Assembly: GCA_903838985.1 (NCBI GenBank)
Contig: CAIMAO010000019.1
Coordinates: forward strand, 1-49,366
Direction: 5' to 3'
DNA length: 49,366 nt
From: an uncultured bacterium
Lineage (GTDB): Bacteria > Patescibacteriota > Minisyncoccia > Phycocordibacterales > UBA9973
The translations under genes and the position numbers were made by a program. Shown piece after piece: positions 41,210 through 46,945 of this stretch. The notes under the pieces were generated by a model. It did no database searches and was not told the origin of the DNA. It was given only the letters and a program-made list of their open reading frames with translations. Within the stretch, counting starts at the first letter, position 1. Every line of letters begins with the position of its first letter.

Positions 41210-41239
41210 ACAAAAAACTCCCTTATTGGGAGTTTTTTG
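41210..41239. terminator. Bidirectional terminator; loop overlaps stop codon of the minus-strand kinase
   Basis: CAAAAAACTCCCttattGGGAGTTTTTTG. Confidence 0.85.
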
Positions 41240-41831
41240 TTTTGTATTCTTCTATTGCTTCCAAAATATCTTTTGTTACCTTAGAAATTGGTTGATTGCC
41301 GTTTATTATTTTTAGTTTACTTAAGCTCTGAAAGTATTTTACTGTTTTGCCGACTTGATCTTTGTGCCAATTTATTCTAGTTTTTATAATATTTTTTTCA
41401 TCAAGTATTTTATAGTCAGCTTTCATGCTTCCTGTCCTTCTTTCAGTTGATCGCTTGTAAACTTCTTTATCAGGAAGACTTACATAGAAAGCCAAAAAAT
41501 CTTGTTTTTTTTCAGCAAGGATTTTTTTTAATAATTGAGCTTCTGGTTTCAACCTAGGGTTTCCTAAGAACAACAAATCTTTATCTTTTGGTTTTTTGGA
41601 AATTTCTCGAATTAAAAATTTTTTCATAAGTGCTACAGGTGCTGGCTTGCCTTGTCCTGTCGTGCGTCTTACCCAATCTCCATCTGCGCTCTTTTCTTTC
41701 ATTAATTTACGCCAATATATACCAGACTCAACAAGCTTGAGAGCGTATTTATTTTCTAAAATTTTTGCTTGAGTATCTTTACCAGAGGCTATCATCCCTA
41801 ATAAAACTATATTAAATCCAAGTTTTTTCAT
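41223..41831 (-). CDS. Nucleoside monophosphate kinase-like P-loop protein (Adk paralogue)
   Basis: NIVLLGMIASGKDTQAKILENKYALKLVESG; TATATT -10 6 nt upstream on minus strand. Confidence 0.8.
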   Translation of the reverse strand: MKKLGFNIVLLGMIASGKDTQAKILENKYALKLVESGIYWRKLMKEKSADGDWVRRTTGQGKPAPVALMKKFLIREISKKPKDKDLLFLGNPRLKPEAQLLKKILAEKKQDFLAFYVSLPDKEVYKRSTERRTGSMKADYKILDEKNIIKTRINWHKDQVGKTVKYFQSLSKLKIINGNQPISKVTKDILEAIEEYKTKNSQ

Positions 41832-41890: not shown

Positions 41891-42478
41891 ATGCAACCTC
41901 AAACTTTTGTGTTTTTTGGAATAATAGGCTCTGGCAAGGGGACACAGGTAGATTTACTTGTGGATTTCTTAAAAAAGCGTGACGGACGTGAGTGTCTTCA
42001 TACTTCTACAGGTAATGAATATAGGAAACTCATAGAAAGTGGTAATTACACAGGCACATTGGTGAAAGATTCAATAACTCGTGGGGAACTTCAGCCTAAT
42101 TTTTTGACTAATGCTATTTTTACAAATATATTGACCTCATCTTTAAATCCTGAAAAACATTTGATAGCAGATGGATATCCTAGGACCATAGAGCAATCAG
42201 AGAATTTTGAAGCAATGATGAAATTTTTCCATAGAGACAATATAGATATAATTTATATAGAACTCAGTAAAGAAGAAGCGTTGAGAAGAAATCTATTGCG
42301 TGGTAGACATGATGATACAAAGGAGGGGATAGCAAAAAGATTTAACGAATATACAAACAATGTAGTGCCTTCAATGAATTATTTTAAAGATAAAGAAAAT
42401 TATAAGATACATCATATCAACGGTGAACAAAGTAAAGAAGACGTTCACAAAGATATTATTAAAGCACTTAATTTCTAG
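41891..42478 (+). CDS. adk: Adenylate kinase family protein
   Basis: FVFFGIIGSGKGTQVDLLVDFL...LIADGYPRTIEQSENF...LRRNLLRGRHDDTKEGIAKRF; secY-adk-map context. Confidence 0.88.
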   Translation: MQPQTFVFFGIIGSGKGTQVDLLVDFLKKRDGRECLHTSTGNEYRKLIESGNYTGTLVKDSITRGELQPNFLTNAIFTNILTSSLNPEKHLIADGYPRTIEQSENFEAMMKFFHRDNIDIIYIELSKEEALRRNLLRGRHDDTKEGIAKRFNEYTNNVVPSMNYFKDKENYKIHHINGEQSKEDVHKDIIKALNF

Positions 42479-42479
42479 T

Positions 42480-43163
42480 ATGGAAAAAGAAACTATTATC
42501 ATTTCATTAGGTGGCTCTCTGATTATTCCTGATGATATTGATGTTTCTTTTTTGAAAGAGTTTAAAGATCTAATTATTTCTCAAATAGAAAAGGGAAAAA
42601 ATTTTGTGATAATAACTGGTGGAGGGAAAGTTTGTAGAAAATATCAATTGGCTGCTAAAGAAATTTCTAGCCCTTCTGATGATGATTTAGATTGGATAGG
42701 GATAGCTTCTTTGAGATTAAATGCACAACTTCTCAGAGTAATATTTAGAGATTATACTCATCCTAAAATAATAAAAGATCCAAATGAAATTCTTGATTTT
42801 GATAAGCCAATAGTAGTTGGTTCAGCAAATGAACCTGGACATAGTACGGATTGGGATGCAGTTGTCATAGCAAAAAATGTAGGTGCAAAAAAAATAATTA
42901 ATTTATCAAATACTGATTATGTTTATGATTCTGACCCAAAGATGAACCCTGATGCAAAAAAGATTGAGAAAATTTCTTGGGTAGATTATAGAAAATTAAT
43001 TCCAAAAGAATGGAACCCGGGCTTGAATTCTCCATTTGATCCTATCGCTTCAGAGCTTTCTGAAAAAGAGGGAATAGAAGTAGTGATAATGAATGGTAAG
43101 CCAATCGATAATTTAGCTAAATATCTAAACGGAGAAGAATTTAAAGGAACAGTAATTAAGTAA
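42480..43163 (+). CDS. pyrH: UMP kinase (amino acid kinase fold)
   Basis: IIISLGGSLIIPDDID...FVIITGGGKVCRKYQ...GHSTDWDAVVIAKNVGAKKIINLSNTDYVYDSDPKMNPDAKK. Confidence 0.9.
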   Translation: MEKETIIISLGGSLIIPDDIDVSFLKEFKDLIISQIEKGKNFVIITGGGKVCRKYQLAAKEISSPSDDDLDWIGIASLRLNAQLLRVIFRDYTHPKIIKDPNEILDFDKPIVVGSANEPGHSTDWDAVVIAKNVGAKKIINLSNTDYVYDSDPKMNPDAKKIEKISWVDYRKLIPKEWNPGLNSPFDPIASELSEKEGIEVVIMNGKPIDNLAKYLNGEEFKGTVIK

Positions 43164-43275
43164 AATTTTATTAATCAAACTTTTTTCGGTACGGATTTTT
43201 TGAAGCTTAAAAAATCCTGAAGTTCTCGGCTCGTCAGCCTCGAAACCCCTTCAAAAGTTTATTTATAAAATTTTA
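43161..43275. repeat. Palindromic-arm repeat, copy A (between pyrH and map)
   Basis: 68-nt core 43185-43252; left arm taaaattttattaatcaaactttt near reverse complement of right arm aaaagtttatttataaaatttta. Confidence 0.9.
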
Positions 43276-43287
43276 GTATATAAAAAC

Positions 43288-44058
43288 ATGGCAATAATAA
43301 TTAAAACAAAAGAAGAAATAGAAATATTAAGAGAAGGTGGCAAGAGACTCGCTACTGTTTTATATAAAGTTGGAGAAATGGTAAAGCCTGGTATTTCTAC
43401 TTGGGAACTAGATAAGTATGCAGAAAAATTAATTAAAGATATGGGAGATTATCCTGCATCACTACATTATCGTCCGGAGGGAGCAGATACGCCATTTCCA
43501 GCTTCTTTGTGTGTTTCGATAAATAATGAAGTTGTTCATGGAATTCCAAATAAAAATAAAATATTACAAGAAGGAGATATTGTTTCTCTTGATTTATTAC
43601 TGAGACATAAAAATCTTTTTACAGATATGGCTATCACTGTGCCTGTGGGAGAGGTTAGTTCTTCGTCAAAAAAACTTTTGAAGGTGACAGAAGATGCATT
43701 GATGGTGGGTATTGATGCGGCGAGGGGAGGAAACAGAATAGGAGACATTGGTCATGCTATAGAGAGTTTTGCTCGCAAATATAAATATGGAATTGTAGAA
43801 GTTTTGTCTGGGCATGGTGTAGGGAAGGCAATACACGAAGATCCTTATGTACCAAATTTTGGGAAAGCTGGTACTGGAGCAAAGCTCGTGCCAGGTATGG
43901 TCATAGCCATAGAGCCGATGCTAAATAATGGAACAAAAAATGTCACCTTAGATAAAGACGGATGGACTTTTCGTACAGCTGATGGCAAAAGAAGTGCCCA
44001 TTTTGAACATACGATCTTGATCACCGAAGGTGAACCGGAGATACTAACTAAAATTTAA
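43288..44058 (+). CDS. map: Type I methionine aminopeptidase
   Basis: YPASLHYRPEGADTPFPASLCVSINNEVVHGIPN...GDIVSLDLLL...GHGVGKAIHEDPYVPNFG...GMVIAIEPM. Confidence 0.96.
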   Translation: MAIIIKTKEEIEILREGGKRLATVLYKVGEMVKPGISTWELDKYAEKLIKDMGDYPASLHYRPEGADTPFPASLCVSINNEVVHGIPNKNKILQEGDIVSLDLLLRHKNLFTDMAITVPVGEVSSSSKKLLKVTEDALMVGIDAARGGNRIGDIGHAIESFARKYKYGIVEVLSGHGVGKAIHEDPYVPNFGKAGTGAKLVPGMVIAIEPMLNNGTKNVTLDKDGWTFRTADGKRSAHFEHTILITEGEPEILTKI

Positions 44059-44164
44059 ATTAAGAAACAATGTTTTTTCGGTACGGATTTTTTGAAGCTT
44101 AAAAAATCCTGAAATTCTCGGCTCGTCAGCCTCGAAACCCCTTCAAAACATTATTTCTTAATTT
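44057..44164. repeat. Palindromic-arm repeat, copy B (after map)
   Basis: Core 44077-44144 differs from copy A at 1 of 68 positions; arms aaattaagaaacaatgtttt / aaaacattatttcttaattt pair at 19/20. Confidence 0.9.
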
Positions 44165-44185
44165 AGCTTGTGATATAATAAATGG

Positions 44186-46945
44186 ATGGAAGGAACATTT
44201 TTAAATGAAATGCCAAAATTCAAGACTCCAGAAGAGGAGCTGAATTATTTGCGTGCGCATGTGGCAAAAAGAGAACAAGAATTAATTGACACAGGACGTT
44301 TTGAACATGCAGATGAAAATGCAGTAAAGGATATTATTGGACAATATAAAGAAAAGTCACAAGAAGATGTTTTACATAAAGACAATATAATTTCTAAAAA
44401 AGAAACAGAAAACATAGTATTAGCATTAAAACCAGAAACACATGACACCATAATGGAAGAGCTTTTGGGTATTGTCATAACTAAAGGAGTTCGAAATGCT
44501 TTAGCTGTCGTGGAATCTATGGCCAACCCCCATATAGACGATGATTTCCACAGAATATTGGTTCAATATTTTAAAACTGGACAGTTAGCTGGTTGCAAAG
44601 AAGGAACACCCTTGTATAAATCTTTGAATATGACCCTTTTTGAAATTACACTTCCGCCACCAAGAGAAGAAGCTGATAAGCAAAAAGGTTTTAAAGAGTT
44701 TATCGGCGCAATGGAACAATTCTACGCTGGCATGAATTCTATTTCAGAAGGAAAAAATAATGAGAAAGAAAATTATTTTACTTTAGAAGTCGCACTTAAT
44801 AACGTTTCTGATGAAGTAGTGGTTTACGCAGCGATACCAAATAAACACATTACACTTTTTGAAAAACAAGTGCTTTCTTTTTATCATGACGCAAAAATTC
44901 ACGAAGTATCTGACGATTATAACGTTTTTAATGAAAAGGGTGGTTCAGCCGGTGCTTATGCTAGCTTTTCTGAACGTTCAGTACTACCAATAAAGACTTA
45001 TGACAACATTGATCACGACCCAATGAATATCATACTCAATGTTTTTTCTAAATTAAAAAAAGAAGGAGAGGGTGCAGCAATACAGCTCATAGTGGCTCCT
45101 GCTGGTGAGAAATTTATTAATGAATTTCATTATATTTTAGATGATGTGAAAGATGGAATGTCAGTTAAACACGCAGCCGATAATTTTTATAAATTCAATA
45201 GAGCACTTTATAAAGCCACAAAAGAATTATTTTTTGAAAAAAAGAAAAAAGAAGAAACAAAAGAGAAATATATAAAAGGAAGGACTGCAGTAGATGAAGG
45301 TGCGGCAGAAAAGATAGGGAACAAAATGAAAAGCTCTATTATGAAAGCGAATATTCGTATCATTACTTCTGCACCGACAAAAGAAGAAGCAGAATCAATA
45401 TTAGGTGAGATAGAATCTTCCTTCAATCAATTTTCTGAACCAGCAAGTAATTCTTTTGTTTTTGAAAAAGCTTATGGTAGCGATTTAAAGAAACTTTTTC
45501 ATGATTTTTCATATCGTATTTTTTCTGGTGATAAAGTTTTACCAATGAATTTAAAAGAGCTTTCTTCTGTGTTTCATTTCCCAGTCGGTATAGGTAGTCA
45601 GCCACAATTGAAAGAAGCAAAGTCAGGGATAGCTCCTGCACCACTTGAAATGGGGGAGCAGGGAATCATTTTAGGTGTAAATAGCTATAGAGGAAAAGAT
45701 ACTGTAGTGCGTATGGGACGCGAAGATAGAATGAGACATTTCTATGTTATAGGTCAGACAGGCACAGGTAAGACTAATATTATGTTGAATATGATTAGCC
45801 AAGATATTAAGAATGGTGATGGTTGTTGTTATATTGATCCACATGGCACAGATATCCAAACTATTCTTTCACGTATTCCTAAAGAAAGAATTGATGATGT
45901 TATCTATTTTGATCCAGCTTATACAATGCGACCAATGGGTCTCAATATGTTGGAATATGATTCAAAATATCCAGAGCAAAAAACATTTGTAGTGAATGAA
46001 ATGATGGGAATTTTTAATAAGTTATTCGATATGAAAGTGGGTGGTGGAGCAATGTTTGAGCAGTATTTTAGAAATAGTGCGTTTCTTGTGATGGAAGATC
46101 CAGAATCTGGTTCTACACTGCTTGAGATTACTAGAGTTTTGGCTGATAAAGAATTTCGTGATATGAAACTTGCAAAATGTAAGAATCCTATCATCAAACA
46201 ATTTTGGATTTCTGCTGAACAAACGACAGGAGATCAATCTCTAGCAAACTTTGTTCCTTATATTTCTTCAAAATTTGATAACTTTATTTCCAACGACATT
46301 ATGCGCCCTGTTGTTCTCCAACAAAATTCTGTTTTTAACTTTAGAAAAATAATGGATGAGAAAAAAATTCTTTTGGTAAATCTTTCTAAAGGTAGGTTAG
46401 GGGATATAAATGCAAACCTTATAGGTCTCGTGCTTGTTGGTAAAATTCAGATGGCAGCGCTTTCTCGTGTAGATATGTTTGGTAAACCCATGAATGATTT
46501 TTATCTTTACATAGATGAATTCCAAAATGTCACTACAGATTCTATTTCTTCTATTTTGTCTGAAGCTAGAAAATATAGATTGTCATTAAACATAGCACAT
46601 CAATACATTACCCAGCTTGAAGAAAAAATTAAAAATGCTGTTTTTGGCAACGTTGGTTCTATGGCTGTATTTCGTGTGGGCACTGAAGATGCTACATTTT
46701 TGGAACCAAAATTTAAACCTCAATTTAATGCAAATGATATAGCGAAGCTGGATAATTACAATGCTTATATGAGTATGCTCATAAATGGTCAACCTACGAA
46801 ACCATTTAATATAAAGACGTTGGCACCAGAAGAAGGCAATAAAGATATTGTTGATGATTTAAAGCAACTTTCATACTTAAAATATGGACGTGACAGAGAA
46901 GAAGTGGAAGCAGAAATTATGGGTAGATATTCTTCAATGAACTAA
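44186..46945 (+). CDS. Conjugation/T4SS-type DNA-translocase ATPase (TraG/TraD/VirB4-like)
   Basis: Walker A VIGQTGTGKTNIMLNMI; CYIDPHGTD; FYLYIDEFQNVTTDSISSILSEARKYRLSLNIAHQY. Confidence 0.88.
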   Translation: MEGTFLNEMPKFKTPEEELNYLRAHVAKREQELIDTGRFEHADENAVKDIIGQYKEKSQEDVLHKDNIISKKETENIVLALKPETHDTIMEELLGIVITKGVRNALAVVESMANPHIDDDFHRILVQYFKTGQLAGCKEGTPLYKSLNMTLFEITLPPPREEADKQKGFKEFIGAMEQFYAGMNSISEGKNNEKENYFTLEVALNNVSDEVVVYAAIPNKHITLFEKQVLSFYHDAKIHEVSDDYNVFNEKGGSAGAYASFSERSVLPIKTYDNIDHDPMNIILNVFSKLKKEGEGAAIQLIVAPAGEKFINEFHYILDDVKDGMSVKHAADNFYKFNRALYKATKELFFEKKKKEETKEKYIKGRTAVDEGAAEKIGNKMKSSIMKANIRIITSAPTKEEAESILGEIESSFNQFSEPASNSFVFEKAYGSDLKKLFHDFSYRIFSGDKVLPMNLKELSSVFHFPVGIGSQPQLKEAKSGIAPAPLEMGEQGIILGVNSYRGKDTVVRMGREDRMRHFYVIGQTGTGKTNIMLNMISQDIKNGDGCCYIDPHGTDIQTILSRIPKERIDDVIYFDPAYTMRPMGLNMLEYDSKYPEQKTFVVNEMMGIFNKLFDMKVGGGAMFEQYFRNSAFLVMEDPESGSTLLEITRVLADKEFRDMKLAKCKNPIIKQFWISAEQTTGDQSLANFVPYISSKFDNFISNDIMRPVVLQQNSVFNFRKIMDEKKILLVNLSKGRLGDINANLIGLVLVGKIQMAALSRVDMFGKPMNDFYLYIDEFQNVTTDSISSILSEARKYRLSLNIAHQYITQLEEKIKNAVFGNVGSMAVFRVGTEDATFLEPKFKPQFNANDIAKLDNYNAYMSMLINGQPTKPFNIKTLAPEEGNKDIVDDLKQLSYLKYGRDREEVEAEIMGRYSSMN

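Follow-up and report, generated by a model that had tools for sequence, protein, structure and literature searches.

In the attC sites of integrons it is a folded strand that is functional, and this strand combines conserved unpaired features with variable paired arms. The REP/REPIN sequences and the GTAG/CGTC superfamilies are short, dispersed extragenic palindromes with an uneven distribution among relatives, and REPs in particular measure 20-40 nt and carry conserved sequence at the foot of the hairpin (PMC3733652, PMC3116915). MITEs are small bacterial mobile sequences that are short, non-coding, multi-copy and patchy, and that are presumably mobilised in trans (PMC2229807). Template switching between inverted repeats homogenises the arms and inverts the spacers (PMC8604942), and it can create and maintain hairpins (PMC8794818).

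The repeat described here, two copies of which flank map in the window (the whole 49,366-nt stretch of DNA that was analysed), is an undescribed family of Patescibacteria with a dispersed core and locus-specific arms. The sequence-only reading had reported two near-identical 68-nt cores, one base apart, on either side of map, each enclosed by arms that pair within the copy, and a hairpin inside the core (ggatttttt-gaagctt-aaaaaatcc); all of these are real (Table 1). The cores lie in register at a spacing of 892 and differ solely at 43222 (G) and 44114 (A), and a 25-nt piece of the core has two matches in the window, with 0.00 expected in shuffles. The further claim that the arms differ between the copies holds in that they are locus-specific, and does not extend to the innermost 4-5 pairs (T-run/A-run) and the A/T-rich composition, which both copies have in common. 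The first bases of arm A are the pyrH stop codon TAA (43161-43163) and those of arm B the map stop codon TAA (44056-44058), and the latter is mirrored by the TTA at the end of the far arm of copy B. Elsewhere in the window, two different adenylate-kinase-family genes lie adjacent to each other between secY and pyrH (41223-41831, minus strand; 41891-42478, plus strand), and a 919-aa protein with weak matches to TraG/HerA-like ATPases is encoded directly downstream of copy B (44186-46945, plus strand).

Table 1. Features of the two repeat copies and their neighbouring genes, in window coordinates.
Feature	Position	Strand	Remark
pyrH, amino acid kinase family (UMP kinase-like), upstream of copy A	42423..43163	(+)	PF00696
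Copy A outer arm, adjoins pyrH	43161..43183	(-)	83% complementary to 43253-43275, 23 nt
Copy A conserved core, three-way junction	43185..43252	(-)	folded strand R = minus strand
Copy A P2 hairpin, GGATTTTTT-GAAGCTT-AAAAAATCC	43193..43217	(-)	
Copy A P3 hairpin, tandem G-A internal loop and GNCG tetraloop	43223..43244	(-)	
Copy A far arm, pairs with 43161-43183	43253..43275	(-)	
map, methionine aminopeptidase (peptidase M24), between copies A and B	43288..44058	(+)	PF00557
Copy B outer arm, adjoins map	44056..44076	(-)	21 nt, 95% complementary to 44145-44165
Copy B conserved core	44077..44144	(-)	
Copy B P2 hairpin	44085..44109	(-)	
Copy B P3 hairpin, tandem G-A loop and GNCG tetraloop	44115..44136	(-)	
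Copy B far arm, pairs with 44056-44076	44145..44165	(-)	

The core holds a second hairpin (P3) besides the one reported (P2) and so forms a three-way junction with the arms, which folding recovered in all 16 strong copies of the window's own genome. P2 is an A/T-rich hairpin; the stem of P3 is interrupted by a tandem G-A/G-A internal loop and capped by a GNCG tetraloop (TTC-GA-GGCT-GACG-AGCC-GA-GAA on the minus strand of copy A). In most of these 16 copies the R strand folds more stably than its complement, and its consensus reads [arm]-TTTTT-AAGG-GGT-[TTC GA GCGC GACG GCGC GA GAA]-YTTCA-[GGATTTTTT AAGCTTC AAAAAATCC]-GT-ACC-GGC-AAAAA-[arm]. The P3 loops (G-A/G-A, GNCG) are constant, the P3 stems vary with compensation, and P2 also shows compensatory changes. 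Across 47 copies, 90% of pair cells pair and double-sided changes occur in 24 of 32 pairs, a level that none of 500 shuffles reached and below which slid controls also fell far.

A search with the core across the genome and its relatives revealed a dispersed family with near-identical cores within the own genome, where we counted 16 strong copies and a covariance-model search reports 19. Four of the copies there have a 100% identical 77-nt core inside unrelated arms. By covariance model, the family is present in 73 of the 80 genomes of the window's genus (Ca. Nomurabacteria), at 0-42 copies each, and is scattered through the class in 33 of 384 genomes; named contigs that carry it belong to Ca. 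Nomurabacteria, Vogelbacteria, Yonathbacteria, Yanofskybacteria and other Parcubacteria. Identity between loci averages 0.89 for the cores and 0.47 for 25-nt arms, the latter exceeding the shuffled value (0.34) mainly because a T-run is common to the arms, and no arms were shared beyond the core between loci. Rfam 15, at gathering and E-value thresholds, returned weak chance matches only for the window repeat and 14 loci with related types, a scan of viral contigs gave no match to the repeat, and in the literature on Parcubacteria/CPR repeats we found no description of such a repeat.

Two diverged relatives, types 2 and 3, have P3 and the arm architecture in common with the repeat itself (type 1). 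Type 2 (GAGTCCGGATATTTTTCTGCTGAAAAATTCCTCAAGACTCGCGCCGTCGCGCTCC) was seen with an identical P3 and long locus-specific arms at L050:2280-2370, L022:476-568 and the 3' end of recA (L235). Type 3 (CACGCATAAAATTC...CTCGGCCCGTCGGCCTCC), with P3 in common, was seen at L064:2276-2368, L285, L281 and L192:2960-3090, and often stands in place of type 1 at the equivalent slot of sister genomes; at G121:C4:7110-7355 (L366) it lies beside the 3' half of a type 1 copy, and the flank GTTTTGTGTAACGTYCTTAAAATCTTA is directly repeated. An unrelated family, X (TTTTCTGGCGAACAAAACGAAGCCAGTGTCCGTAGGCGAAAA), likewise sits in locus-specific stems at rplL (L278), recA (L224) and jag (L263), and at least three more unrelated families (Y, Z and W) occur at gene 3' ends inside locus-specific stems (L258 at yidD, L265, L267 at ruvA; L255, L269, L271; L310, L240).

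Between related genomes the arms change in pairs, and the core is inverted, swapped or lost. We compared two genomes that are ~90-94% identical, G120 (Baikal-deep-G202) and G121 (TrH-25oct19-271), slot by slot. The arms were identical at two slots; at four the core was unchanged and the arms had been rewritten yet were still complementary, including a paired 6-nt indel. The core was inverted relative to the genes at two slots and exchanged for another family at about eight, and presence/absence was seen at two to three, the empty slot being armless. One slot with arms and no full core keeps a core stub and is therefore a deletion, located at a TCAAAAA microhomology. Over all loci, 35 pairs of matched slots had the same orientation and 27 were inverted (n=62), and in L169 and L201 inverted cores lie within homologous arms. 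At the pyrH-map slot the element is present with diverged but paired arms in G027, G019 and G004, and G012, G008, G009 and G049 have a short armless spacer only. Arms already present at empty sites were looked for, and most such sites have none (the pyrH-map slot in these four genomes; G121:C15 compared with G120:C16). For at least one unit, the type 2 element at G120:C16, whether gained or lost, the empty flank contains no source of the arms, and no simple direct repeat that would mark a target-site duplication was seen among the few clean presence/absence slots.

Local DNA makes up the arms; in many cases it is the end of the adjoining gene, final codons and stop included, with a mirror copy beyond the core. 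The core stands a median of 26-27 nt from the stop codon, and of 179 gene ends, 20 have a stem that extends beyond the stop codon and takes in 9 nt or more of coding sequence, compared with 3.2 for random partners; one arm then includes the coding end of the adjacent gene, and the opposite arm its inverted copy. The far arm of G121:C19, TTATTCTTGGTTCTC, mirrors the gene end GAG AAC CAA GAA TAA, whereas its counterpart in the sister genome G120 has this gene end and lacks the mirror; since what was copied is coding sequence, there is no doubt which way the copying went. Two convergent genes identified by Pfam, a pfkB kinase and a transketolase, end in the two arms of a single slot, and across four species their last codons and stop agree within a species and differ between species (CTG TAA in L154, ATC TAG in L165, ATT TAA in L436 and ATT TAG in L147, where a different element family is present). 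At L214, which has a long insert between the two genes and no element, the gene ends do not match. The arms are A-rich upstream and T-rich downstream. The position of the stem just after the stop codon and its T-rich far arm would fit an intrinsic terminator; the G.U bias described next lies on the opposite strand.

Counting one copy per genomic slot (138 slots), the arms contain 114 G.U and 55 A.C on the R strand (p=1.4e-5). The ratio falls to 67:45 (p=0.047) without arm positions 5-9, counted from the core, and at 41:25 (p=0.06) it misses significance under a harsher arm-similarity filter with 63 copies; on the same strand it is 23:11 in P2 and 25:10 in P3. The bias is equal whichever way the neighbours run and thus belongs to the element. 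This roughly twofold excess of G.U over A.C points to selection on the R-strand fold, as RNA or as single-stranded DNA. Relative to the neighbouring genes, again taking a single copy per slot, R is antisense to both in 43 cases and sense in 17, and because it is mostly antisense a role at the level of the mRNA is not straightforward. A mutational strand bias was rejected, by inference, as the source of the G.U excess, since leading-strand C-to-T change would give the opposite sign, judging by the GC skew in G046. In this genome, where the skew is clear, R lies on the minus strand in 11 of 11 strong copies of the 130-495 kb half, and the other half is mixed; seen by replichore (G046:C1, L424-L443), each of the 11 strong copies in one has R on the leading-template strand, and in the other the strands are mixed.

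A Y1/RAYT transposase was considered as the mobiliser and rejected, Y1 being common in the genus and copy number uncorrelated with it (rho 0.17, p=0.13). There was no Y1 match (PF01797) in 10 genomes with 5-19 copies, and eight genomes with 4-11 Y1 genes carry 0-1 copies; G000, with 19 model hits, lacks Y1. No Y1 was found in the own genome, and at four Y1 genes examined no core lay beside the gene.

We consider it about two-thirds probable that the repeat is a short non-autonomous family at gene 3' ends, its conserved core of ~65-70 nt forming the apex of a long palindrome that is shaped by template switching and by selection on the R strand. Changes of arms and core fit what template switching between inverted repeats leaves behind, and two marks of quasi-palindrome correction were found: concerted change of the two arms (G120/G121; pfkB/transketolase), and inversion of the spacer between conserved arms (27 of the 62 slot pairs; L169/L201). 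During replication, the polymerase would switch template at the palindrome, probably folding back at the short T-run/A-run pair at the core edge, and the flank would be copied into the opposite arm, by which arms could be born, extended and corrected; the apex would sometimes be re-copied in the other orientation, giving a core inversion. Selection on the R strand would preserve the folded shape. The long stem by the stop codon may serve, in both directions, as a 3'-end hairpin or one resembling a terminator, and the core may be recognised as a folded strand by a putative protein, which would also explain its spread. Template switching accounts for the concerted arms, paired indels, mirrored gene ends and inverted cores, but alone it predicts neither the R-strand G.U bias nor identical cores at unrelated slots; core spread and strand bias need selection and a putative mobiliser. 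Inverted cores found at distant slots may equally have arisen as separate insertions, and recombination between the arms may also invert a core.

The template-switch idea of the sequence-only reading is thus largely borne out, the process itself having already been described in principle. That reading had proposed either an inverted duplication of the flank created by insertion or a selected stem, and there is support for both, in the mirrored gene ends and in the G.U/A.C asymmetry respectively; one gene end has been copied across relative to a 94% identical genome, but insertion of the core is no more than a possible cause. The suggestion of an undescribed insertion mechanism gains no support: template switching with arm homogenisation and spacer inversion is on record (PMC8794818, PMC8604942). 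A more specific scenario, in which arrival of the core would trigger inverted copying of the flank, a dedicated enzyme would flip or exchange the core, and families would compete for gene-end slots, is offered tentatively and is on the unlikely side.

It is possible, if unlikely, that a putative recombinase or transposase recognises the single-stranded R hairpin and would excise, flip and exchange cores in the manner of attC. Such an enzyme is suggested by the conserved unpaired features (G-A/G-A, GNCG, AAGCTTC) and the one-strand constraint, by core inversions and swaps among the P3-sharing families (types 1-3) at one slot, and by the non-random placement of R relative to replication in G046. 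However, there is no candidate enzyme, Y1 number does not track copy number, and the swaps could be alleles imported by homologous recombination. The short distance from core to stop codon and the A-rich upstream and T-rich downstream arms would also suit a mobile core that enters the loop of an existing intrinsic-terminator hairpin, the arms being the old stem, kept by termination. Equivalent slots of relatives do have plain terminators or other element families, and at rplL in G003 (L282) the stem of a plain terminator matches that around type X in G057. We nevertheless judge this quite unlikely, for most empty slots lack a hairpin bearing these arms, the arms extend into coding sequence, one far arm is a recent copy of coding sequence (G121:C19), and the G.U bias is antisense to the gene in most copies, the opposite of what selection for mRNA termination would leave.

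Selection might instead act alone on a structured RNA or single-stranded DNA, whose sequence-free outer stem drifts with compensation and with no template switching. The strong covariation, the tolerance of G.U on the R strand in arms and core and the greater stability of that strand's fold agree with this, but drift fails for cores that are identical within a genome while their arms are unrelated, for paired indels, for core inversion within homologous arms (L169/L201), for inverted copies of gene ends and for the joint change of stop and final codons in the genes of two different enzymes, and we regard selection alone as very unlikely. Chance or assembly artefact in A/T-rich metagenome bins deserves almost no weight: many of the genomes are indeed metagenome-assembled, but the copies recur in independent assemblies from many projects, which refute it, a 672-kb contig holds many copies, and shuffling leads one to expect zero.

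On the preferred reading of template switching under R-strand selection, these loci show template switching repeated many times in nature on a single palindrome design, and at one slot the ends of two enzyme genes change together. Compensatory changes in the arms seem to stem largely from mutation and are alone no proof of a selected RNA structure, a warning for covariation-based RNA discovery in general. The loci also bring to light a wealth of gene-end elements in the candidate phyla radiation that had not been described, and they make the movement of conserved cores without a visible transposase testable.

Like REP/REPIN sequences, the members of this family are short, dispersed extragenic palindromic repeats with uneven copy number among relatives, and like CGTC repeats they have no dedicated transposase gene alongside. 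Unlike in REPs, conservation falls on a ~68-nt three-way junction at the apex, with long arms drawn from the locus itself; GTAG or CGTC at the foot of a 20-40 nt hairpin is absent, and CGTC occurs solely as the plus-strand P3 tetraloop. The family resembles MITEs in being short, non-coding, multi-copy, patchy and presumably mobilised in trans, whereas its inverted repeats lie outside the conserved part and differ per locus, no target-site duplication was seen at the few clean presence/absence slots, and there are no conserved terminal inverted repeats beyond the 4-5 bp T-run/A-run at the core edge. Set against the general description of attC, it shares the folded strand, the conserved unpaired features and the variable paired arms, but it conserves the interior rather than the ends and appears to have no attC core sites, cassette array or linked integrase. 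With known template-switch footprints it has homogenised arms, multi-base paired changes and inverted spacers in common (PMC8604942, PMC8794818); each of those concerns one locus, and the spacers in the yeast study were short, whereas here one conserved spacer family of ~68 nt recurs at many loci and gene ends are reshaped on both sides.
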